Below, in pieces: positions 9,865 through 28,402 of a DNA stretch of 64,000 nt. The stretch is taken from contig NZ_JAUSRE010000004.1 in assembly GCF_030811655.1 (NCBI RefSeq), positions 186,001-250,000 on the forward strand, given 5' to 3'. The notes beneath the pieces are model-generated. The model was not told the DNA's origin. It saw only the letters and a list, made by a program, of their open reading frames with translations, and did not search any database. The translations under genes were made by a program, and so were the position numbers. The stretch comes from Pseudarthrobacter enclensis (GTDB taxonomy: Bacteria; Actinomycetota; Actinomycetes; Actinomycetales; Micrococcaceae). The first letter of the stretch is position 1, and every line of letters starts with the position of its first letter.

Positions 9865-11082
9865 ATGACTCAAGCCACGGGGAAACAGGCCCTAAAAGAC
9901 GCCGACGTCGGCAGCCTGTCCCGCGCCGGCGATCTTTTCCAACTGCTGCGCGACGGCAGGGCGCGCACCCGGGCCGAACTCGCGTTGACCACGGGACTGG
10001 CCCGCTCAACCGTCGCTTCCCGGATTGATGCGCTGATGCTCTCCGGCCTGGTGGGTCCCGCAGGCGAGGCGCTGTCCAGCGGCGGCAGGCCGCCGTCGCG
10101 CTTTGCCTTCAACCCCTCCGCCCGGCTGGTGCTTGCCGTGGACGTGGGCGCCACCCACGTGATCGTGGCGGTCACTGATTTGGGCGGGAAGATCCTCGCA
10201 GAGCACCGGCTTGAACAGCAGGTGGCCGATGGGCCCGAGGCAGTGCTGGACCAGGTGGTGGCGCAGGGCAAGGAACTGCTTGGCTCCGTGGGACGGGGGG
10301 TTGGCGAACTCGCTGGGATCGGCATCGGACTCCCCGGACCCGTGGAACATGACACCGGCAAGCCCGTAAAACCACCCATCATGCCGGGCTGGGACGGGTT
10401 CGATGTGGTCAGCTACGTCCAGCGGTCCCTCCCCGTCCACGTGCTGGTGGACAACGACGTGAACATCATGGCCCTGGGGGAGCAGTCCGCCCACTGGCCG
10501 GAGCACAACAACTTTTTCTTCGTCAAGGTGGCCACGGGCATCGGCTCCGGCATCATCAGCAACGGCGAACTGCAACGCGGTGCCAACGGTACGGCGGGCG
10601 ACCTGGGACACGTCCAGGTGGCCCGGGGCGCGGATATCCTCTGCGCCTGTGGAAACTATGGGTGCCTGGAGGCACTCGCGTCAGGTCCCGCCGTCGCGCG
10701 TTCCCTGCGGGAGCACGGACTGGACGTGGCAAGGGGCGCCGACGTGATCCGGCTCGCCGCAGACGGCAACCTGCAGGCCATCCAGGCCCTGCGCCAGGCA
10801 GGCCGGGACATCGGCGAGGTGCTGGCTTCCGTGGTCAACCTGCTCAATCCGTCAGTCATTGTGGTGGGCGGCAGCTTTGGGGAGACGGGGGAGCACGTCG
10901 TGGCCGGCATCCGCGAAGTGGTGTACCGGCGCTCGCCGCCGCTGGCCACCTCGCACCTGCGCATCAGCGTCTCCCGCGCCGGAAGCCAGGCTGCCGTACT
11001 GGGGGCAAGCCAGCTGGTCACCCAGTACATCCTGTCGCCAGCCGTCATCGAAGCGACCCTGGCCGGGGCCGCCGCCGGGTGA
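9865..11082 (+). CDS. ROK family transcriptional regulator
   Basis: A 405-aa regulator. Residues about 17-75 form a winged helix-turn-helix (RTRAELALTTGLARSTVASRI), and the rest is a ROK sugar-kinase-like fold with the phosphate-binding AVDVGATH near residue 92 and the Cys-rich ROK motif CACGNYGCLEA near residue 260. Proteins with this layout (NagC/Mlc/XylR type) bind DNA and respond to a sugar or sugar phosphate. It is divergent from the sugar operon, with 186 bases between, so it probably regulates it through the palindrome at 9779-9792 (inference). The gene converges on the GH13 gene with a 30-base gap. Confidence 0.95.
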   Translation: MTQATGKQALKDADVGSLSRAGDLFQLLRDGRARTRAELALTTGLARSTVASRIDALMLSGLVGPAGEALSSGGRPPSRFAFNPSARLVLAVDVGATHVIVAVTDLGGKILAEHRLEQQVADGPEAVLDQVVAQGKELLGSVGRGVGELAGIGIGLPGPVEHDTGKPVKPPIMPGWDGFDVVSYVQRSLPVHVLVDNDVNIMALGEQSAHWPEHNNFFFVKVATGIGSGIISNGELQRGANGTAGDLGHVQVARGADILCACGNYGCLEALASGPAVARSLREHGLDVARGADVIRLAADGNLQAIQALRQAGRDIGEVLASVVNLLNPSVIVVGGSFGETGEHVVAGIREVVYRRSPPLATSHLRISVSRAGSQAAVLGASQLVTQYILSPAVIEATLAGAAAG

Positions 11083-11112
11083 CGCAGGGGATTCCGGCGC
11101 CACCCGGGGAAC

Positions 11113-13488
11113 CTAGGCTTCCGCGTCGGGCTCCGGCGCCTCGGTCAGGATCAGTGCCGTTCCGCCGTAGGCCGGCAGTTCCAGGAAGAAGCTGTGCAGG
11201 TCGTCCACCTGCCCCACGGTCTCGCCGCTGAACAGGTCCTGGACGTTGGCGCCTGACGGCAGTTCGTTGGACTGGATGCTGCCGGCGATGTCCTGGCCGG
11301 AGAAGTTCAGTGCCGTGACCTGAAGGGCTCCGTCCTTGAGCCGGTTGACCAGCACCAGTGCGCCCCGGTTTGAGACGTCCGGAACGTCGAGCAGGGTGCC
11401 GGTGGCAATCCCGTTGTCTTCACGAACGGCAAGGATCCGCTGCAGCCGCCTGGCGAACGAGTCCGGGTCCTTCAGCTGTTCCGGCAGCGGCCCGTAGAGG
11501 CTGCGTGCCCGGGGCATCCCTGCCGAGGAGGTGGTGGCGTCCGGGCTGGTTCCCATGAGGTCGTGGGCGCCGCGGTTGATCCAGCGCGTATCACCCTGGG
11601 AGGTGAGTTCGCGGACGCTGCTCCGGTCCAGGGCCAGGATGCCTGTGAGGTCCCAGCCGGAGAGGGCGAAGACGCCGGGCTGCAGGGCGTTGTACATGGC
11701 CAGGAGCAGGTGGACGTCCCTGATCTGCGTTTCCTGCTCCGGGGTGATGTCCGCCGGGTCCTTGATTCCCAGCGCGGCCATGATGAAGCTGACCGTGGTG
11801 CAGGCAATGCCGTTGGTGGTGAAGACGGCGTTGTAGGGCCCGTTCTCGCCGGTCAGCCGGTCCCGGAGGGTCTGCTGGATCTGCTCTGCAAGCTGGGCTC
11901 CGGTGAGTTCCTCGCCGTTAAGCTCGAACATTTCGTCCCGGTGCCCGGCGGCGAAGTGCAGGAGTTCGTAGGTGAGCTCGTCATGGTTCTGCAGGGCATG
12001 CACCAGCGAGGCCTGGTCGACGCCGATTTCCAGGGACAGCCGCAGGGTCAGCCGCAGGAATTCGGTATCCGCGGTGACCAGCGAGTAGTGGTACGCCGGG
12101 CGGGTGATGAAGTCGTAGGAGAGGTCCGGCCCGGAATCCGAGGTTGCCTTGATGTCGTCAATGGTCAGGTTCAGCTCCTGGAAGGAGAATCCGCCCACCT
12201 TGCGGATCATGGAACCGATGAGCTGGTTGGCGGCCTCGGAGAGCGGGTGCCCTTCGGACCAGCCGGGCTGCTCCTCGGCGCTCTTTTCCACCCCCAGGAA
12301 GCCGTTGGCGTCCAGGCGCAGCGCCCCGGTGCCCAGGTCCACCAGCGAGTGCAGGGCATCGCCCACCACCAGGCGCATTCCTGCGAAGGTGGGGTCCAGC
12401 CAGTTGATGGAGGGCTGGCCGGCCTTGAAGTAGTGCAGGTAGACCCAGCGGCGGGTCTTGCCGGTGGTGTCCACGATGGGGCGGGTGACGCTCCAGTTGG
12501 TTTCCTTGACCCCGGGTTCGTAGAAGATGACGCGCTGCAGCCGCCCGATGATGTAGCCGGCCTTCTGCAGCGCCTGCTCCGAGTCCGGGCTGAGGTTGAC
12601 TGAATCGGCACCCTCGGGAACATCCGGCAAAAGGTGCCAGTCCTCTTCCGGAATATCCACCATGTGGTAGATCCCGGGGTAGTCCCGGAAGTTCATTTCG
12701 GCCAGGCGGAAGTCCGCGCCCTTGCCGGTGTGGCCGGGGACAATGTCATCGATAACGGTGCCGTCATGCTCGGCGGCAACCTCGCACATGCGGCGGAACT
12801 CGTCTTCCGTGCCGAAGACCGGGTCGATCGCCATGCTGATGCGGTCGAAGTGCCCGTCCACGCTGGGCGTGTGCGACCAGCCGCTGATGCCGCCGGCAAG
12901 CTTCACGGGGCCGGTGTGGATTCCGCGGATGCCGATTTCACGGAAGGCCTTCCACATTTCGGGGTCGCCCAGGGCGGAGAGGAATGACTGGCCGGTCGGC
13001 GTGATGAAGGACAGGGGATAGGCGGTGAACCAGACGGAAGCGCGTTCGACGGCGGCACGCGGGTTGGGGTGCGCGTACGAGTTCTGCCACATGCTGGCCT
13101 GTCCGGACAGCTGCCGCGCCAGCGTGTTCGCGTCCCCCAGCATGGCCTGGTTGCGGAGCCACTCCACGTACGCGGCGTTCCGCCCGTCGAATTCGAAGGA
13201 CGGCTTGCTGCCTACGAACTGGCGCCGCCGTGCGATGGGCCGCAGTGCTTTGGGCCGGGCCGCGAAGAATTGCTCGTCGAAATTGACGTCCAGTTCCGTG
13301 GCCTGCTCCGCAGCACCCGCGTCCAGTTCCGTGGCCTGCTCCGCAGCACCCGCGTCCAGTTCCGTGGCCTGCTCCGCAGCACCCGCGTCCAGTTCCGTGG
13401 CTTGCTCCGCAGCACCCGCGTCCACTTCCCCATTTACTGCGTCTGCATCCGCTTCCGAAGTGTGTTCGCTGGTGCCCGGCTCCCGCAT
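11113..13488 (-). CDS. GH13 (alpha-amylase superfamily) protein, trehalose-synthase-like
   Basis: A 791-aa protein. After an acidic N-terminus with four 11-residue repeats (residues 23-66) comes a GH13 barrel: region I reads [12 protein letters not shown], the nucleophile region [12 protein letters not shown], the acid/base FQELNL and the final region [12 protein letters not shown], so the catalytic Asp, Glu and Asp are all present. A beta domain follows ([21 protein letters not shown]). Close relatives are annotated as maltose alpha-D-glucosyltransferase (TreS-like); the His-Thr-Gly version of region I differs from classical amylases. The start is the ATG after AGAGGAG; an upstream in-frame ATG lacks a good site. 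No signal peptide, so cytoplasmic. Trehalose metabolism is likely but not proven. Confidence 0.9.
13288..13419 (-). repeat. Four tandem copies of a 33-bp coding repeat
   Basis: Copies lie at 13288-13320, 13321-13353, 13354-13386 and 13387-13419. The first three are identical; the fourth has one synonymous change (CAG to CAA). Each encodes the 11-residue unit [11 protein letters not shown] in the N-terminus of the GH13 protein. The unit is acidic and should form a flexible or helical extension. Confidence 0.97.
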
Positions 13489-20305: not shown

Positions 20306-21271
20306 ATGGGGGCAGGAGACGGGGCAGCGGAGCAGTCCAGGCTCGCCGCCGAGCGGGTTGCGAGGCTGAAACGCCGGCTGGACCAGACGGAGCGCTCCAC
20401 AAAGTCGTGGGACGCCGGCGCCGTGGGGGAGCAAGTGGTGGCGGAAAAGCTCAGCGAGCTGGTGCCGCGCGGCTGGTACGTGCTCCACGATGTCCACTGG
20501 CCGGGCCGTCCCAAGGCGAACCTGGACCACGTCCTGGTAGGACCGGGCGGTGTGGTGGTGGTTGATTCCAAGAACTGGACGGGTGAGGTCCGGGTGGCAT
20601 CCGGCGTGCTGTGGCAGGGCCGTTTTGCGCGGACCCAGGCCGTGGAAGGTGCCCTTGCCCAGTGCGCTGCCGTGGCCTCGGTGCTGACTCCACCGCATCG
20701 CAGGCTGGTGCGGCCGCTCATCTGCATGGCCGCGCAGCCGGACCTGTTCGGCGTGACGAACTCGGACGTTGCCATTGCGGGCTCCCAACGGGTGGTGGCC
20801 GCTATCGAGGCGCTGCCGCCAGTGCTGGACCAGCAGGAGGTGGTGGGGCTGTATGCGCAGCTGGGCCAGCAGCTTACGCATGAGCAGGAGCCGGGCATTA
20901 CCGCGTTGCGGAACGTGCGTCCGGGTACCGTGGTGCGCCCGCCGGACGCTTTACCGCCCGGAGGCTCCACTGCAGTTCCCCGCATGAAGCCCGGGCCCCG
21001 GAAGGCGGCAGGTCCGGACGGAACAGGACGAAGCCAAAGCGCGGCCCGGCACCCTGCGGGCAAGGCCCTGCCCCCCAGGGCGGCGAACGGCGGGCGGCAG
21101 GCGTCAGAGCGGGCCGGGACGCCGCCAGGATCACGGGCCGGCGCCGCTGCCGGCGCCCACGGCCGGAACGGCAGTGCCCATCAGCGCGGCACCACGAGCG
21201 GAGGAAAGCTGGCGCTGCTCGCCGCCTTCGTCATTTTCGCCGTCTATATCCTGCCCTACTTGGGCCGCTAG
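20306..21271 (+). CDS. NERD (nuclease-related) domain membrane protein
   Basis: A 321-aa protein. A short N-terminal coiled segment ([18 protein letters not shown]) is followed by a NERD domain at about residues 35-150: [32 protein letters not shown]. The Asp and Asp-x-Lys residues match the PD-(D/E)xK-like core. A low-complexity Gly/Ala/Arg linker leads to one C-terminal membrane span ([18 protein letters not shown]), so it is likely tail-anchored. NERD proteins are predicted nucleases of unknown role. The last 41 bases overlap, on the opposite strand, the end of the LysR-type gene. Confidence 0.88.
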
Positions 21272-22157
21272 CCTCCGGGGCACCTCCGGCCCGCAGCCGG
21301 TCTGCCGCAGCGCTGCGGACGGCGGCAGTAACCCGGTTGAGCCGCTCCGAATCGAGGGTCCAGGCCTGCCAGTAGAGGGCCACGTCCTGGTGGTCGGCTT
21401 TCTCCAGCCGGACCAGCGCGCCGGACTCCAGCTCGTCGGTGAGCTGCAGCTCCGGGATCATCCCCCAGCCCAGGCCGGCGGTCACCGCGGTGAGGAATCC
21501 CTGCGAGGACGGGACGGTATGCGTGGGAGGTTGTTCGCCCACGCCCTTCGCCGCAAGGAGCTGCTGCTGCAGGTTATCTTTTGTGTTGAATCTGAGGACC
21601 GGCATGGCCGCCCAGTCGATGCCCCTTGAGGTGGAAAAACGGCGGTGCAGTGCGGGGGCAGCCACCGGGATGTACCGCATGGAACCCAGGAGTTCCACCC
21701 GGCAGCCACTGACCGGGACGGGGTCCGAAGTGACGGCGCCCGTGACCTCGCCCTCGCGCAGGAGCTGGCTGCTGTAGCCCTGGTCCTCCACGTGGAGGTC
21801 GAGGGCTGAGTCGTCCCATCCGGCGGCCTGCTGCAGCACGGGGACAAACCAGGTAGCCAGCGAATCGGCATTGACAGCCACCGGGAGATGGGCCCGGGAG
21901 GACGCTCCGGAGCCAAGAGCAGCGGCCGTTTCCGCCTCCAATACCTGCACCTGGCGGGCCATCCGCAGCAGCAGGGCGCCGGCGTCGGTGGCGGTGCAGG
22001 GCAGCCGGCGGCGCACCAGGACCTGCCCCACCGAGGCTTCCAGCGCCTTGATCCGCTGGCTGACGGCGGACGGCGTGATCCGGAGGAAATCCGCCGCTGC
22101 CTCGAACGTACCTTCGTCCACCACAGCGACGAGGGCCTTCAAGTGTTCCAGGTTCAT
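21231..22157 (-). CDS. argP: LysR family transcriptional regulator, ArgP/LysG type
   Basis: A 308-aa LysR regulator. The N-terminal winged helix covers residues 1-60 (LKALVAVVDEGTFEAAADFL, ITPSAVSQRIKALE), and an effector-binding domain follows (TVPSSQGFLTAVTAGLGWGMIPE). The ArgP/LysG subfamily senses lysine, arginine or histidine and activates a LysE exporter, and a LysE gene is divergent here with only 44 bases between start codons. This is the lysG-lysE layout known from Corynebacterium glutamicum. The 3' end overlaps the convergent NERD gene. Confidence 0.93.
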   Translation of the reverse strand: MNLEHLKALVAVVDEGTFEAAADFLRITPSAVSQRIKALEASVGQVLVRRRLPCTATDAGALLLRMARQVQVLEAETAAALGSGASSRAHLPVAVNADSLATWFVPVLQQAAGWDDSALDLHVEDQGYSSQLLREGEVTGAVTSDPVPVSGCRVELLGSMRYIPVAAPALHRRFSTSRGIDWAAMPVLRFNTKDNLQQQLLAAKGVGEQPPTHTVPSSQGFLTAVTAGLGWGMIPELQLTDELESGALVRLEKADHQDVALYWQAWTLDSERLNRVTAAVRSAAADRLRAGGAPEASGPSRAGYRRRK

Positions 22158-22163
22158 GAAGAT

Positions 22164-22184
22164 ATTCTAAGGAAAGAGAAGAAT
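22164..22184. promoter_or_regulatory. Candidate LysG/ArgP binding site
   Basis: ATTC (22164-22167) and GAAT (22181-22184) are separated by 13 bases; one base further the arms read ATATTC and GAATGT, matching at five of six positions. The site lies in the short gap between the divergent regulator and exporter genes, where LysR-type regulators bind. It is an A/T-rich patch in otherwise GC-rich DNA. Confidence 0.35.
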
Positions 22185-22201
22185 GTTTTATTTGCCTGCA
22201 T

Positions 22202-22825
22202 ATGGCGCAGGATCCTACCGTCGTTGATATGTGGACCGCAGGGATTACCGGAATGCTGACAGGGCTCGCGCTCATAGTGGCGATTGGGGCGCAGAACGCG
22301 TTCGTGTTGCGGCAGGGGATCAGGCGGGAGCACATTGGGGCCGTGGTAGCCGTCTGCATGGCCGGTGACGCCCTGCTGATAGTGGGCGGGACAGCCGGCA
22401 TCGGAGCGCTGGTGGCGCGGTTCCCCGGAGTGCTGGAGGTCCTGCGCTGGGCCGGCGCGGCCTACCTGCTTTGGTTCGGGGTGCGGTCCTTCACAGCGGC
22501 GGCGAAACCCTCTGCGCTTTCGGAGCAGGCGCCCAGGTCAAAGAACTCCGTGGTTGCCACCACTGCAGCACTGACTTTCCTCAACCCGCATGTCTACCTG
22601 GACACCGTGGTGTTGTTGGGCAGCGTGGCCAACCAGCAGGGCGCCGACCTGCGCTGGGTCTTCGCCGGCGGCGCAGTCGCCGGCAGCGTGCTGTGGTTCT
22701 CGGCCCTGGGGTACGGGGCGCGGGCGCTGGCAGGTGTCCTCCACAGGCCGCAGACCTGGCGCTGGATCGACGCCGGGATCGGGGTCCTGATGGTCTTCCT
22801 GGCCATCCGCCTGGTACTGCACTGA
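22202..22825 (+). CDS. lysE: LysE family amino acid exporter
   Basis: A 207-aa membrane protein with about six hydrophobic segments. Conserved LysE features are ALIVAIGAQNAFVLRQGI near residue 22, FLNPHVYLDT near residue 127 and LGYGARALAG near residue 168. It exports lysine or arginine when internal pools are high. No Shine-Dalgarno sequence precedes the ATG at 22202, nor a second ATG at 22229 (ATGTGGACC), so a leaderless message or the downstream start is possible. It is divergent from the ArgP/LysG-type regulator. Confidence 0.93.
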   Translation: MAQDPTVVDMWTAGITGMLTGLALIVAIGAQNAFVLRQGIRREHIGAVVAVCMAGDALLIVGGTAGIGALVARFPGVLEVLRWAGAAYLLWFGVRSFTAAAKPSALSEQAPRSKNSVVATTAALTFLNPHVYLDTVVLLGSVANQQGADLRWVFAGGAVAGSVLWFSALGYGARALAGVLHRPQTWRWIDAGIGVLMVFLAIRLVLH

Positions 22826-23425: not shown

Positions 23426-24124
23426 CTAGCGGAGCAGCTCCACGTCAGAGACAAGGTCGATGTGGGCCAGCATGGCGTCCGCGGCTGAGGCGCCATCCTG
23501 GGCGCGGATGGCCTCGGCGATCTTCCGGTGCGAGGCCAATGACTGCTCGGGGCGCCCGGGCTGGCCCAGCGATTCCATCCGGGTCTCCAGGATCATTTCC
23601 GCGATGAACGCCATCAGCTGCGCCAACACCGACGAGTGCGCAGCGGCCGTGATGGCCTGATGGAACAGCTCATCGCCGTGGGTGCCGCGGTCGCCGTCGT
23701 GGATTTCCTTTTCCATGACGTCCAGGGCGGTGTCGATGGCCGCCAGGTCCTGGTCAGTCCGTCGTTCAGCGGCAAGGGCGGCAAGCTTCACTTCAAGCGT
23801 GCTGCGGGCTTCCACGATTTCCGGGAGGCGGCTCTGGTGGGCGCGCAGACCTTTGATGACGGAGGCCACGCTGGGCCGCCTGGCCAGGACTGCCCCGGTG
23901 CCGTGCTGCACGTCGATAACGCCAAGTACTTCAAGGGCCACCAGGGCCTGGGCCAGGGTGGCGCGGGAAACGCCGAGCCGCTCCGCGAGGTCGCGTTCTG
24001 CGGGCAGGAGGTCGCCGGGCTTCAACTGCGCGGACTCGATGTAGGCGAGGATCTGCTCCACCAGTTGCTCGTAGAGCCGCGGACGTGAGACCCGCTCCAG
24101 ACCCAGTCGTGCTGCCTTCTCCAC
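23426..24124 (-). CDS. FadR/GntR family transcriptional regulator
   Basis: A 232-aa regulator: winged helix at residues 10-75 (LYEQLVEQILAYIESAQLKPGD, LGVSRATLAQALVALEVLGV) and an FCD-type effector domain (EARSTLEVKLAALAA, DELFHQAITAAAHSSVLAQL, SHRKIAEAIRAQD). The start is GTG after GGAGGG. It is divergent from the MatC-like carrier operon; in Rhizobium the malonate regulator MatR is also of the GntR family. It probably represses the operon at the inverted repeats in the 145-base gap (inference). Confidence 0.94.
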   Translation of the reverse strand: MEKAARLGLERVSRPRLYEQLVEQILAYIESAQLKPGDLLPAERDLAERLGVSRATLAQALVALEVLGVIDVQHGTGAVLARRPSVASVIKGLRAHQSRLPEIVEARSTLEVKLAALAAERRTDQDLAAIDTALDVMEKEIHDGDRGTHGDELFHQAITAAAHSSVLAQLMAFIAEMILETRMESLGQPGRPEQSLASHRKIAEAIRAQDGASAADAMLAHIDLVSDVELLR

Positions 24125-24170: not shown

Positions 24171-24193
24171 TTGACAGATAGACTCACTGTCTA
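24171..24193. promoter_or_regulatory. Candidate FadR-type operator over a -35 box
   Basis: Two overlapping perfect inverted repeats: GACAG-N9-CTGTC (24173-24191) and TAGAC-N5-GTCTA (24179-24193). They start inside a consensus TTGACA (24171-24176). No strong -10 element follows at ideal spacing on the plus strand. The site is in the middle of the regulator/carrier divergent region, 77 bases before the carrier start. Confidence 0.5.
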
Positions 24194-24269
24194 AGAGGCT
24201 AGTCCAGTGAGCCAGTAACTCACGTCACACACTCGCTCCCCCTAGCTTCCCCAAAATGGAGGACCAACG

Positions 24270-25640
24270 ATGTCCGCTCCTGTGTTATCGATCATCATCC
24301 TGGCGGTGATGTTCCTGCTCGCGACCGTCCTGCCCCTGAACATGGGTGCGCTCGCGTTCGTGGGCGCCTTCCTGCTGGGCGCCGTAGTCCTTGGCATGTC
24401 CACCAACGAAATCCTGGCCAACTTCCCCGGCGGCCTCTTCCTGACCATCGTCGGCGTCACCTACCTGTTCGCCATCGCCCAGAACAACGGCACCATCGAC
24501 CTGCTGGTCCGGGGTGCCGTCAAACTCGTGGGCAGCCGCGTTGCCCTCATTCCCTGGGTCATGTTCGCCATCACCGCCGTCATCACGGCTGTAGGCGCCC
24601 TGTCTCCCGCGGCCGTTGCCATCATCGCCCCGATCGCCTTGAGCTTCGCCGGCAAGTACAGGATCAGCCCGCTCCTGATGGGCATGATGGTCATCCACGG
24701 TGCCCAGGCTGGCGGCTTCTCGCCCATTGCCGTCTATGGCGTCACCGTCAACGGCATCCTTGCCAAGACGGACCTGGCCTTCAGTCCCACGGCACTCTTC
24801 CTCTCCAGCTTCATCTTCAACCTGGTCATCGCCCTGGTGCTCTTCATGGTCCTGGGTGGAAGGAACCTCCTGTCCTCCAGGGTGGGGCACTTCGTGGAGC
24901 AGGCAGCCGAAGCCCGCATGGCCGTCAGCGTCGGCGCCAAGGCAGCCGGTGGCGACGTCCCCTTCAAGGGCGTCGGCTCCGGCATGTACGGCCCCCGCGA
25001 CCCCGCAGGCGACGGCGTCGCCGCCACCAAGGAGCGCAAGGAACGGATCCCGCAGTTGGTGACCATTGCCGGCCTGATCGTGCTGGCCGTCGTGGCCCTC
25101 GGCTTCAAGATGGACGTCGGGTTCGTATCCATCACCATCGCCATCGTGCTGGCCCTGGTATCGCCCGCAGCCCAGAAGGGCGCCATCAACAAGATCAGCT
25201 GGTCCACCGTGCTGCTGATCTGCGGCATGCTGACCTTCGTCGGCGTACTGGAGGAAGCCGGCACCATCGAATTCGTTTCCAGCGGCGTTGCCGGAATGGG
25301 AATGCCGCTCCTTGCGGCCCTCATCATCTGCTTCATCGGCGCCGTGGTGTCCGCCTTTGCCTCCTCCACCGCCATCCTGGCGGCACTCATCCCGCTGGCC
25401 GTGCCGTTCCTCTCCACTGGCGAGATCGGTGCCGTCGGCGTCATCTGCGCCCTGGCGGTCTCCGCCACCATCGTGGACGTCTCACCGTTCTCCACCAACG
25501 GCGCCCTGGTGCTGGCCAACGCGCCCGAGGGTGTGGACAAGGACCAGTTCTACAAGCGGATCCTCGGCTACAGCGGAATCGTTATCGTGGCCGGTCCCGT
25601 CCTGGCCTGGCTGGCACTGGTGGTTCCCGGCTGGCTCTAG
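24270..25640 (+). CDS. MatC-like dicarboxylate (malonate) carrier, SLC13/ArsB-type
   Basis: A 456-aa membrane protein with about 11-12 spans. The N-terminal half carries the pattern of the MatC N-terminal domain: TVLPLNMGALAFVGAFLLG near residue 19, FAIAQNNGTIDLLV near residue 67, and SPAAVAIIAPIALSF and GAQAGGFSPIAVYGV. A cytoplasmic loop (about 205-260) and a second half with VSAFASSTAILAALIPLA follow. MatC of Rhizobium takes up malonate. The ATG is preceded by GGAGG. First gene of a three-gene operon with a CoA-transferase and a carboxyltransferase. Other dicarboxylates are possible substrates. Confidence 0.92.
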   Translation: MSAPVLSIIILAVMFLLATVLPLNMGALAFVGAFLLGAVVLGMSTNEILANFPGGLFLTIVGVTYLFAIAQNNGTIDLLVRGAVKLVGSRVALIPWVMFAITAVITAVGALSPAAVAIIAPIALSFAGKYRISPLLMGMMVIHGAQAGGFSPIAVYGVTVNGILAKTDLAFSPTALFLSSFIFNLVIALVLFMVLGGRNLLSSRVGHFVEQAAEARMAVSVGAKAAGGDVPFKGVGSGMYGPRDPAGDGVAATKERKERIPQLVTIAGLIVLAVVALGFKMDVGFVSITIAIVLALVSPAAQKGAINKISWSTVLLICGMLTFVGVLEEAGTIEFVSSGVAGMGMPLLAALIICFIGAVVSAFASSTAILAALIPLAVPFLSTGEIGAVGVICALAVSATIVDVSPFSTNGALVLANAPEGVDKDQFYKRILGYSGIVIVAGPVLAWLALVVPGWL

Positions 25641-25674
25641 CCACCTACGCCGCACTTTAGAAAGGAAACCCAGC

Positions 25675-26886
25675 ATGTCTACAACCGAATCTTCCCAAGG
25701 ACCCCTGGCCGGGCACCTCGTCGTCGACCTCAGCCGCGCACTGGCAGGTCCGCACGCCGGGATGATGCTGGCCGATCTCGGCGCCCGCGTCATCAAGGTG
25801 GAGAGTCCCGGGACCGGAGACGACACCCGGGGCTGGGGGCCGCCCTTCGTGGGGCCGGAGGACGACCTCCAGTCCACCTACTTCATGTCCTGCAACCGCA
25901 ACAAGGAGTCCATCACCCTGGACCTGAAGAGCGGCGACGGGCAGGCGGTACTGCGCGGGCTGCTGGAGCGCGCGGACGTGGTAATCGAGAACTTCCGGCC
26001 CGGCGTCATGGACCGGCTGGGCTTCTCCACCGCCGCCATGCACCAGCTCAACCCGCGGCTGGTCATCCTGTCCATCACCGGCTTTGGCCACGACGGGCCC
26101 GAATCCCAGCGCAGCGGCTACGACCAGATCCTCCAGGGGGAAGCAGGCCTCATGTCCCTCACGGGCTCGGGGCCGGACGATCCCCAGCGCGTGGGCGTCC
26201 CCATCGCGGACCTGCTTTCCGGGATGAACGGCGCTTTTGGTGTCCTCGCCGCTTTGGTGGAGCGGAACAGGACCGGGCAGGGCCAAGTGGTGCGGACCTC
26301 GCTGCTGGCATCGCTGATCGGGGTCCACGCCTTCCAGGGCACCAGGACCACCATCGCAGGTGAAGTCCCGCAGGCCCAGGGCAACCACCACCCGTCCATC
26401 GCCCCCTACGGCCTGTTCAACTGCAAGGACGGGAGCGTGCAGATCAGCGTCGGCAGCGAGAAGCTCTGGCAGTCCTTCGCCGCGGCCTTTGGCCTGGAAC
26501 CGGCTGCCCCGGGCTTTGCCAGCAACGCGGAAAGGGTGCGGAACCGCGATGAGGTGATTGCCGCCGTCGAACGCGCGTTCGCGGACTATGGCGCTGTTGA
26601 GTTGCTGGAAAAACTGAACGACGCCGGGATCCCGGCAGGGAAGGTCCGCTCGCTGGACGAGGTGTACGCGTGGGAGCAGGTGGCCTCGCAGGGCCTGGTG
26701 GTTGACGTGCAGCATCCGCTGCTTGGAAAGATCAGCCTGCCGGGCCCGCCCCTGCGGTTCTTCGCACCCGGGGACGCGGCCGAAACCACCCGGACCGGCC
26801 ACGACGCGCCACCGCTGCTCAACGAGGACGGCGCCGCAATCCGCGAATGGCTGGGCCTGGGTGCCACGCCTGGCGGCTCCAAATAG
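25675..26886 (+). CDS. CaiB/BaiF family (class III) CoA-transferase
   Basis: A 403-aa protein. The start region reads GHLVVDLSRALAGPHAGMMLADLGARVIKVE, with family signatures NRNKESITLDLK near residue 77, VVIENFRPGVMDRLGF near 104 and SGYDQILQGEAGLMSLTG near 150. The expected catalytic Asp lies in VGVPIADLLSGM near residue 177. Class III enzymes move CoA between carboxylates through an aspartyl-CoA anhydride. Between a malonate-type carrier and a malonyl-CoA-handling protein, malonate is a reasonable acceptor (inference). The ATG follows AAAGGAAACC, 34 bases after the carrier stop. Confidence 0.94.
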   Translation: MSTTESSQGPLAGHLVVDLSRALAGPHAGMMLADLGARVIKVESPGTGDDTRGWGPPFVGPEDDLQSTYFMSCNRNKESITLDLKSGDGQAVLRGLLERADVVIENFRPGVMDRLGFSTAAMHQLNPRLVILSITGFGHDGPESQRSGYDQILQGEAGLMSLTGSGPDDPQRVGVPIADLLSGMNGAFGVLAALVERNRTGQGQVVRTSLLASLIGVHAFQGTRTTIAGEVPQAQGNHHPSIAPYGLFNCKDGSVQISVGSEKLWQSFAAAFGLEPAAPGFASNAERVRNRDEVIAAVERAFADYGAVELLEKLNDAGIPAGKVRSLDEVYAWEQVASQGLVVDVQHPLLGKISLPGPPLRFFAPGDAAETTRTGHDAPPLLNEDGAAIREWLGLGATPGGSK

Positions 26887-26887
26887 C

Positions 26888-28402
26888 ATGGCGACGGCAG
26901 AGAATGTACGGCACATGAAGGCAACCGAACTGCTGGACGCGGTGGTGGACCCGGGGTCGTTTGTCTCCTGGGATAGCGAACCGGAGCAGCCCGCGCTGTC
27001 GGAGGAGTACGCCCGCGACCTGGCCAAAGCAAGGGAGCGCAGTGGCGCCGACGAATCGGTAATCACCGGCGCCGGCCTCATCCGCGGGCGCCCGGTGGCA
27101 CTGATCGTCAGCGAATTCTCTTTCCTGGCCGGCTCCATTGGGCATGCTGCGGCGCAACGGATCGTTGCCGCCGTCGAACGCGCCACCGCGGAGGGCCTGC
27201 CGCTGCTGGCCGGCCCTGCCTCCGGCGGAACCCGCATGCAGGAAGGCACGCTCGCGTTCCTGTCGATGGTGAAGATTACCGGCGCTGTCCGGGCACACCG
27301 CCAGGCCGGGCTGCCCTATCTGGTCTACCTGCGGCACCCCACCACCGGCGGCGTCATGGCGTCGTGGGGATCGCTGGGACACATCAACGTTGCCGAGCCG
27401 GGTGCCCTGCTGGGCTTCCTGGGGCCGCGGGTGTACCAGGCCCTGTACGGCGAAGCGTTCCCGGAGAACGTGCAGGTCGCCGAGAACCTTTTCCACAAGG
27501 GGCTGATCGACGGTGTGGTGGAGCCCGGCGACCTGGCCGACTTGGTGGCCCGGGCCCTGGACCTCCTCTCTCCCGGACATCCGGCGGCTGCGCCGCCTGC
27601 TCCGCCCGAAACCCTGAACATCCGGCCAGCGGCCGTTGACGCCTGGACCTCCATCGAGCTCTCCCGGCGGCCCCGCCGCCCTGACCTGCGCCAGCTGCTG
27701 AAGTTCGGCGCCACGGACGCCCTCCCCCTTAACGGGGCGGGACAGGGCGAGAAGGACCCGGGCCTGCTGCTGGCGCTGGCGCGCTTCGGCACCCAGTCCT
27801 GCATCGTGCTGGGACACGCGCGCCCGCTGCGCAAGGATGGTGCCGGGATGGGGCCAGGCTCGCTGCGGGAGGCCCGCCGCGGGATGAAACTGGCAGAGGA
27901 GCTCAGGCTTCCCCTGCTCACTGTCATTGATACTGCCGGTGCGGCGCTGTCCCGGGAGGCGGAGGAGGGTGGTCTGGCCGCGGAGATTGCCCGCTCGCTG
28001 CACGAACTGATCGGGCTTGGTTCGCCGTCGGTCTCGGTGCTGCTGGGCCAAGGCGCCGGGGGAGGGGCCCTGGCGCTGCTGCCCGCGGACAGGACCATCG
28101 CTGCCCAGCACAGCTGGCTGTCGCCGCTGCCTCCGGAGGGTGCCAGCGCCATCGTCCACCGGACCACCGCGTTCGCGCCCGCCATGGCCCAGGCGCAGGG
28201 GGTGAACGTCGCCGCGCTGCACGCCAACGGCCTGGTGGACCACATTGTTGATGAGCGTGCTGATGCCTCACTGGAGCCGCGGGAGTTCTGCACCCGGATG
28301 GCCCGTGCCATTGAATATGAATTGGGCAGGGTGGCCGCTGTTCCGGTGCCTGAACTCGTGGCCGCACGGGCCCGGAAGTTCGCCTCCCTGGGACGGCGCT
28401 GA
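26888..28402 (+). CDS. Fused acyl-CoA carboxyltransferase beta/alpha protein
   Basis: A 504-aa protein with both crotonase-fold halves. The beta half (about 30-230) has GPASGGTRMQEGTLAFLSMVK-type AccD signatures, HPTTGGVMASWGSLG and EPGALLGFLGPRVYQ, but no four-Cys zinc finger. The alpha half (about 260-490) has TVIDTAGAALSREAEEGG, LGQGAGGGALALLPADR and GLVDHIVDE, as in AccA. Biotin carboxylase and biotin carrier genes are absent. The MdcD/MdcE subunits of malonate decarboxylase share this fold, so a malonyl-CoA decarboxylase role is attractive (inference). The start is the ATG one base after the transferase stop; a second in-frame ATG is nine codons on. Neither has a clear binding site. Confidence 0.9.
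   Translation: MATAENVRHMKATELLDAVVDPGSFVSWDSEPEQPALSEEYARDLAKARERSGADESVITGAGLIRGRPVALIVSEFSFLAGSIGHAAAQRIVAAVERATAEGLPLLAGPASGGTRMQEGTLAFLSMVKITGAVRAHRQAGLPYLVYLRHPTTGGVMASWGSLGHINVAEPGALLGFLGPRVYQALYGEAFPENVQVAENLFHKGLIDGVVEPGDLADLVARALDLLSPGHPAAAPPAPPETLNIRPAAVDAWTSIELSRRPRRPDLRQLLKFGATDALPLNGAGQGEKDPGLLLALARFGTQSCIVLGHARPLRKDGAGMGPGSLREARRGMKLAEELRLPLLTVIDTAGAALSREAEEGGLAAEIARSLHELIGLGSPSVSVLLGQGAGGGALALLPADRTIAAQHSWLSPLPPEGASAIVHRTTAFAPAMAQAQGVNVAALHANGLVDHIVDERADASLEPREFCTRMARAIEYELGRVAAVPVPELVAARARKFASLGRR

Follow-up and report, generated by a model that had tools for sequence, protein, structure and literature searches.

Organization of the locus

The window analyzed here is a stretch of 64,000 nucleotides from Pseudarthrobacter enclensis (contig NZ_JAUSRE010000004.1), in which a compact operon, preceded by a divergent regulator gene, encodes a MatC-like carrier, a class III coenzyme A (CoA) transferase, hereafter CoAT, and a fused AccD+AccA-like carboxyltransferase, hereafter CT. 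We consider it likely that this operon is a malonate catabolic unit, in which malonate would be imported, would receive CoA by transfer, and would be decarboxylated by CT without biotin. The features of the locus are the following:

23426..24124, minus strand: GntR-family regulator with an FCD effector domain, probable repressor (PF07729, 3.6e-27; PF00392, 3.3e-16)
24171..24213, plus strand: promoter/operator-like block in the gap between regulator and carrier (phylogenetic footprint; putative function)
24270..25640, plus strand: MatC-like dicarboxylate carrier, probable malonate importer (PF07158 MatC_N, 1.2e-59; PF03600 CitMHS, 4.7e-29)
25675..26886, plus strand: class III CoA-transferase (CoAT), 403 aa, probable malonate CoA-transferase (PF02515, 3.2e-119)
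26888..28402, plus strand: fused AccD+AccA-like carboxyltransferase (CT), 504 aa, probable biotin-independent malonyl-CoA decarboxylase (PF01039, 9.2e-47; ACCA, 5.8e-45)

The carrier, CoAT, and CT genes share the plus strand, and a single base separates the CoAT stop codon from the CT start. The regulator gene is divergent from the carrier gene and lies just outside the interval 24270-28402. Upstream of the carrier, TTGACA at 24171-24176 and GAGGCTAGnCCAGTGA from 24195 form a conserved block, as defined by a footprint of 52 aligned gaps (the window and 51 loci, near-identical genomes partly included). The operon itself contains neither a biotin carboxylase gene nor a gene for a biotin carboxyl carrier protein (BCCP), and the carrier has a weak similarity to the DASS model (36 bits, with a cut-off of 199).

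In the rhizobial matABC system, MatR is the regulator, MatA the malonyl-CoA decarboxylase (MCD), MatB the malonyl-CoA synthetase, and MatC the carrier. A preliminary description of this DNA had likened the GntR regulator and the MatC-like carrier to that system, and the matches to PF00392, PF07729, and PF07158 bear out the resemblance; the activation and decarboxylation of malonate at the CoA level, which we propose for this operon, would be a further likeness. The difference lies in the enzymes, since the places of MatB and MatA are taken here by a class III CoA-transferase and an AccDA-like CT with no biotin partners, and the gene calls agree with the description on this point as well.

The carboxyltransferase and its relatives

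CT falls short of every curated cut-off with which it was compared, reaching 181 of 317 bits for AccD, 151 of 357 for AccA, 42.6 of 278 for MdcD, and 26.3 of 237 for MdcE, and its similarity to AccD/AccA (1.6e-55) far exceeds that to MdcD (1.5e-6). The N-terminal segments of both acetyl-CoA carboxylase subunits are missing (the matches begin at position 56 of the AccD profile and at about position 51 of that of AccA), the one of AccD being what we take to be its zinc ribbon. The AccD-type half retains the motifs S112GGTR..QEG and P151TTGG. On the AccA half, the AYPG loop of canonical AccDA is replaced in all 124 members of the group, mostly by AALS, AELS, or ADLS, and GEGGSGGA has mostly become GxGxGGGA; this loop signature, together with Trp410, is common to the CTs linked to a CoAT and to those that stand alone. 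About 30% of the CoAT-linked CTs and 53% of the lone ones retain the Glu of the AccA GEG motif.

An AlphaFold2 model of the single chain (mean predicted local distance difference test score 91.1, predicted template modeling score 0.90) has transcarboxylase 12S and acyl-CoA carboxylase beta chains as its best full-length Foldseek matches. When the C half was compared with VIA-align, AccA chains came out on top with Z scores from 35.7 to 34.6, including E. coli AccA (2f9y_A; Z 35.6, root-mean-square deviation 1.9 over 257 aligned positions). MdcD and MdcE are not among the 50 matches listed in either structure search, a listing that excludes nothing. The comparison of the predicted model sets the fold of CT and not the direction of its reaction, that is, carboxylase or decarboxylase.

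By its sequence, CT descends from the carboxyltransferase of acetyl-CoA carboxylase and not from MdcDE, a direct descent from which was rejected because AccD and AccA are far closer. The carboxyltransferase fold that the preliminary description saw as shared with MdcD/MdcE thus holds as broad homology, and the narrow kinship does not, given the scores above and the differing residues. Gln100 and Ser142 of MdcE are reported to matter for decarboxylation, and MdcD-MdcE, which is homologous to CT, decarboxylates malonyl-CoA in vitro (PMC5534430). A hand alignment to an MdcE fragment places Gln100, Tyr102, and Ser142 of MdcE opposite Ala352, Leu354, and Gly391 of CT, and therefore any decarboxylation by CT would use other side chains. 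The biotin-independent malonate decarboxylase encoded by mdc would be alike in its cycle of a transferase and a decarboxylase of carboxyltransferase fold; it differs in that CT lies under the MdcD and MdcE cut-offs, does not conserve Gln100 and Ser142, and is accompanied by a transferase of another class.

The CoA-transferase

CoAT has the PF02515 domain and the aligned Asp of GVPIAD, which is common to the solved relatives compared and is presumably the catalytic residue of class III CoA-transferases. Its nearest solved structures are 4ed9, SUGCT 9br7, and 10uh, and close relatives act between succinate and glutarate. Seven NCBIfam models were matched, all of them below their cut-offs; the best is the succinate-glutarate type (320 against 750 bits), and the oxalate CoA-transferase model gave 253 bits against 522, for which reason an oxalate pathway was rejected. 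CoAT thus belongs to the same class III family as the SUGCT/CaiB glutarate and oxalate CoA-transferases and has the Asp at the same position; it differs from SUGCT and the oxalate enzymes in lying far under their cut-offs and in its linkage to a CT gene. The glutarate enzyme CaiB of Agrobacterium accepts both succinyl-CoA and acetyl-CoA as donor (PMC7645780). For the two-enzyme cycle that had been suggested for this locus, acetyl-CoA is accordingly a possible donor and not an obligatory one, the relatives of CoAT being of the succinate-glutarate type.

Distribution and gene linkage

Two samples were surveyed, one of 120 genomes of the family (CT search at 1e-40) and one of 396 genomes of the phylum (CT search at 1e-90). 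CT is present in 25 of the 120 family genomes, among them three of the six of the genus, after one of 26 matches (G006) was dropped as a canonical AccDA of 33-35% identity, and in 31 of the 396 phylum genomes. A scan of species genomes found at least 560 stretches encoding CT relatives, the best 80 of which all carry actinobacterial titles. Our tree comprises 125 of 132 loci, identical CT sequences having been dropped, and the member counts exclude the canonical AccDA loci L058 and L029 (two Rhodococcus rows of the tree are labeled "Cyanobacteriota", probably through a name-lookup error).

Of 27 family-level loci, to which two genomes, G075 and G095, contribute two each, all but one carry a CoAT gene immediately upstream of the CT gene (26 loci, with a CoAT identity of at least 68%), and the exception is the canonical AccDA of L058; the arrangement is therefore not due to chance. 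The whole GntR-MatC-CoAT-CT set, with the regulator divergent from MatC, occurs in 18 of the 27. More widely, a CoAT is found near CT in 52 of 80 named loci, and in 90 of 132 loci it is encoded no more than 2.5 kb away on the CT strand, some genomes being counted twice (83 of 125 without identical sequences); GntR and MatC are also present in 51 of the 90. Among the 12 most distant CT loci, with CTs 44-50% identical to ours, six have a paired CoAT (L212, L214, L223, L225, L229, and L235), L228 encodes a full-length class III CoA-transferase, 45% identical to CoAT, two genes away, and for the remaining five no CoAT was found.

The transporter varies among loci: the place of MatC may be taken by a sodium:solute symporter, a binding protein of the branched-chain ABC type, a GntP permease encoded on the opposite strand, or a DUF5058 protein as a putative transporter. 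Amidases and M20 hydrolases are recurrent neighbors. No pathway emerged from the annotated neighbors of the lone CTs of Rhodococcus and Nocardioides or of the distant lone CTs. Many such CTs, at loci L095 to L137 of these two genera, share the active-site signature of the group, and no partner gene was found for them.

Barbiturase and MatB as neighbors of CT

At locus L138 of Nocardioides flavescens, the genes for CoAT, a ring-opening amidohydrolase, and CT are consecutive on one strand, and the amidohydrolase is nearer to a solved barbiturase (634.6 bits) than to any cyanuric acid hydrolase (319.9 bits for the best). Oxidative pyrimidine degradation converts uracil to malonic acid and thymine to methylmalonic acid (PMC7662398). 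Malonate is thus a probable substrate, because barbiturase is an enzyme of this degradation and its gene stands here between those of CoAT and CT. In another genome (G236), CT, CoAT, and a barbiturase (541.6 against 311.4 bits) lie inside about 26 kb, together with genes for hydantoinase A/B, an amidase, a Mo-hydroxylase, AllG- and carbamate-kinase-like proteins, a xanthine/uracil permease, and a partial dihydropyrimidinase-like protein. Of the 31 CT genomes, nine have PF09663 genes, against 26 of all 396 (expected 2.0, P = 4e-5, uncorrected for kinship); the nine span five families, and the barbiturase identity is confirmed for only part of them. In G071, the contig with CT also carries a PF09663 gene, but its product shares only 41% identity with the barbiturase of L138, and it was not counted as linkage.

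Cyanuric acid degradation was rejected as the function of such loci, since the amidohydrolases of L138 and L213 are nearer to the solved barbiturase. Both proteins (L138:1407-2591 and L213:13923-15104) pass the NCBIfam equivalog for cyanuric acid amidohydrolase, with 475 and 453 bits against 360, so barbiturase-like proteins risk being misnamed.

A second source of malonyl-CoA was found at L220, a contig of 4.6 kb on which a CT gene with no CoAT beside it diverges from the gene of a MatB-type ligase; this ligase scores 651 bits to the S. coelicolor malonyl-CoA ligase (3nyq) and 240 to the next solved protein. Here, another enzyme that makes malonyl-CoA stands at the usual place of CoAT, which again makes malonate a probable substrate; it is the one locus among 132 with CT beside MatB. 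When the 31 CT genomes are divided by whether CoAT is adjacent, MatB occurs in 13 of the 19 that lack such a CoAT and in 1 of the 12 that have it (Fisher P 0.002), G164 being scored as CoAT-bearing on an 81-residue match, at the site of the complete CoA-transferase of L228. The one exception (G192) has a GntR-MatC-CoAT-CT operon, a lone CT, and MatB; six CT genomes have neither an adjacent CoAT nor a MatB of the S. coelicolor type. Eleven of the 13 genomes with MatB and a CT without CoAT belong to one family (f6), so that few independent events are represented.

The genome of the window has no match to MatA (PF05292), which the search finds in 9 of the 120 family genomes, and its best match to the MatB model NF005702 has 347 bits against a cut-off of 558, which 12 of the 120 pass. 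The model NF005858, at 1e-130, matched 39 of the 396 phylum genomes, none of the three candidates scored out of 21 first-look ones in the genome of the window, and nothing in the 120 family genomes, controls included. For MdcA, there was no match in the genome of the window and none of the 120 family genomes exceeded the cut-off, with no control genome positive either. A classic matA or matB is present in 13 of the 120 family genomes and in none of the 25 with CT (expected 2.7, P = 0.04).

Seven genomes from two genera (G012:C6:103393-105819, G107, G089, G042, G066, G048, and G072) have MCD (MatA) and MatB matches on one strand and with equal open-frame lengths of 919-1026 aa, which suggests a fused malonyl-CoA decarboxylase-synthetase.

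Biotin partners

The genome of the window (4.74 Mb) encodes three proteins with a PF01039 carboxyltransferase domain. The two besides CT are on contig C1, which also encodes two chains of the biotin-carboxylase/BCCP type that contain an AMKM motif, and the genome has 12 biotinyl/lipoyl matches altogether. Relatives of these two chains (E 1e-6, within the flanks) are near none of 131 CTs, and the positive control, one canonical AccDA (L058), has such a relative nearby. CT is thus probably independent of biotin. A third query, a lipoyl-E2-like chain, matches Nocardioides loci, and 15 loci, mostly of this genus, carry such a gene in the flank. In relation to AccD-AccA and fused AccDA, CT is alike in fold and subunit order and is closest to them by sequence; it differs in the missing N-terminal segments, in the lack of a nearby biotin carboxylase relative, and in the loops of its AccA half. 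That CT is an ordinary acetyl-CoA carboxylase subunit was rejected because of the missed AccD and AccA cut-offs and the lack of this nearby relative. The control locus, L029/L058 (G006:C19), comes from the same family and encodes a canonical fused AccDA next to a biotin carboxylase.

Proposed pathway and alternatives

In the pathway that we propose, malonate would be taken up by the MatC-like carrier, and the GntR/FCD regulator would probably keep the operon repressed as long as neither malonate nor its CoA ester is present. CoAT would transfer CoA from acetyl-CoA or succinyl-CoA to malonate, and CT, needing no biotin, would convert the resulting malonyl-CoA to acetyl-CoA and CO2. If the donor is acetyl-CoA, the two enzymes would be catalytic in CoA, and the net conversion would be of malonate to acetate and CO2; with succinyl-CoA, acetyl-CoA, succinate, and CO2 would be the net products, and the route would be tied to the tricarboxylic acid cycle. 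Malonate as the substrate, its activation by CoA transfer, and its decarboxylation by CT had all been put forward in the preliminary description; they are now supported, as inferences, by independent genomic contexts: the barbiturase, MatB, and the absence of relatives of the two biotin-carboxylase chains near 131 CTs.

Beyond the window, we lean towards the view that the CT branch found across the Actinomycetota is a dedicated biotin-independent malonyl-CoA decarboxylase that receives its substrate either from MatB or from a class III CoA-transferase acting on malonate, both in a stand-alone malonate route and at the end of the oxidative degradation of pyrimidines (barbiturate). The task is known, and the combination of enzymes, which differs from the textbook malonate pathways, is probably new; in the open-access literature we found no paper recognizable as describing the CoAT-CT pair as a malonate pathway. 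If correct, this would be a malonate route without an ATP-driven ligase, a special acyl carrier protein, or biotin, it would show how oxidative pyrimidine catabolism can enter central metabolism, and it would give a function to a large actinobacterial group named only "carboxyl transferase domain-containing protein" in the database records consulted.

Several observations weigh against the proposed pathway. CT is nearest, in sequence and fold, to biotin-dependent carboxyltransferases, and the catalytic residues of MdcE are not conserved in the hand alignment. The malonyl-CoA activity of MdcDE is itself called weak by the authors who described it, with a kcat 14-fold below that of human MCD (PMC5534430). 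The AYPG loop is also absent from Chloroflexus AccA, so its loss is not diagnostic of lost biotin use, and a BCCP could act in trans, at least four of the 12 biotinyl/lipoyl matches being left without an assigned identity. The exclusion between mat genes and CT is weak, and the association with MatB mostly reflects kinship, since MatB is found, with or without CT, in every one of the 27 genomes sampled from other orders of the class. Finally, 40 of the 132 loci (the canonical L058 included) have none of the partner genes sought, and CoAT adjoins CT in only half of the most distant loci.

The same chemistry could serve a substituted malonate, such as methylmalonate (giving propionyl-CoA), tartronate, or ethylmalonate, with malonate itself a minor substrate or not used, which we regard as unlikely. 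The barbiturase linkage fits malonate and methylmalonate alike, given the fate of thymine in oxidative degradation; CoAT is under the cut-off of every NCBIfam model that it matched, and the contexts of the pair are varied, with amidase/M20 genes in one case and, on a plasmid of Rhodococcus, an operon for the cleavage of aromatic rings in another. However, the MatC carrier and the MatB partner both indicate malonate itself, the latter not decisively, because S. coelicolor MatB tolerates methylmalonate.

It is quite unlikely that CT depends on biotin and acts as a carboxyltransferase with a BCCP recruited in trans, its product being malonyl-CoA or a different carboxylated CoA ester and CoAT then releasing or loading dicarboxylates. 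Its closest characterized relatives by sequence and fold, the biotinylated alpha chains encoded in the genome of the window, and the partial retention of the GEG Glu would fit such a role, but both biotin carboxylase chains share a contig with the other two carboxyltransferases, and relatives of these chains are near a canonical AccDA and near none of the 131 CT loci. The many catabolic contexts (barbiturase, amidases, and carriers) and the replacement of the AYPG loop in all members also speak against such a role.

That the operon serves a dicarboxylate that CT does not decarboxylate, such as glutarate, succinate, or oxalate, with a separate role for CT, is highly improbable: the kinship of CoAT with succinate-glutarate and oxalate CoA-transferases and the weak DASS similarity of the carrier point that way, but the CoAT-CT linkage, kept in nearly all family-level loci and in six of the 12 at 44-50% CT identity, favors one pathway, as do the barbiturase and MatB contexts.

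Additional observations

On a plasmid of Rhodococcus sp. USK13 (L240:1747-13449), a CoAT-CT pair closes a run of genes for a ring-hydroxylating dioxygenase, a dehydrogenase, a VOC protein, and hydrolases. The Paenarthrobacter plasmid pYJN5-2, typed as conjugative, has an amidase and an M20 hydrolase beside CoAT and CT (L239:7873-13626); this CoAT is encoded at 10825-11940 and has no gene in the annotation table. In the window itself, an ArgP/LysG-type regulator divergent from a LysE-type exporter (21231-22825) forms an ordinary lysine/arginine export pair.

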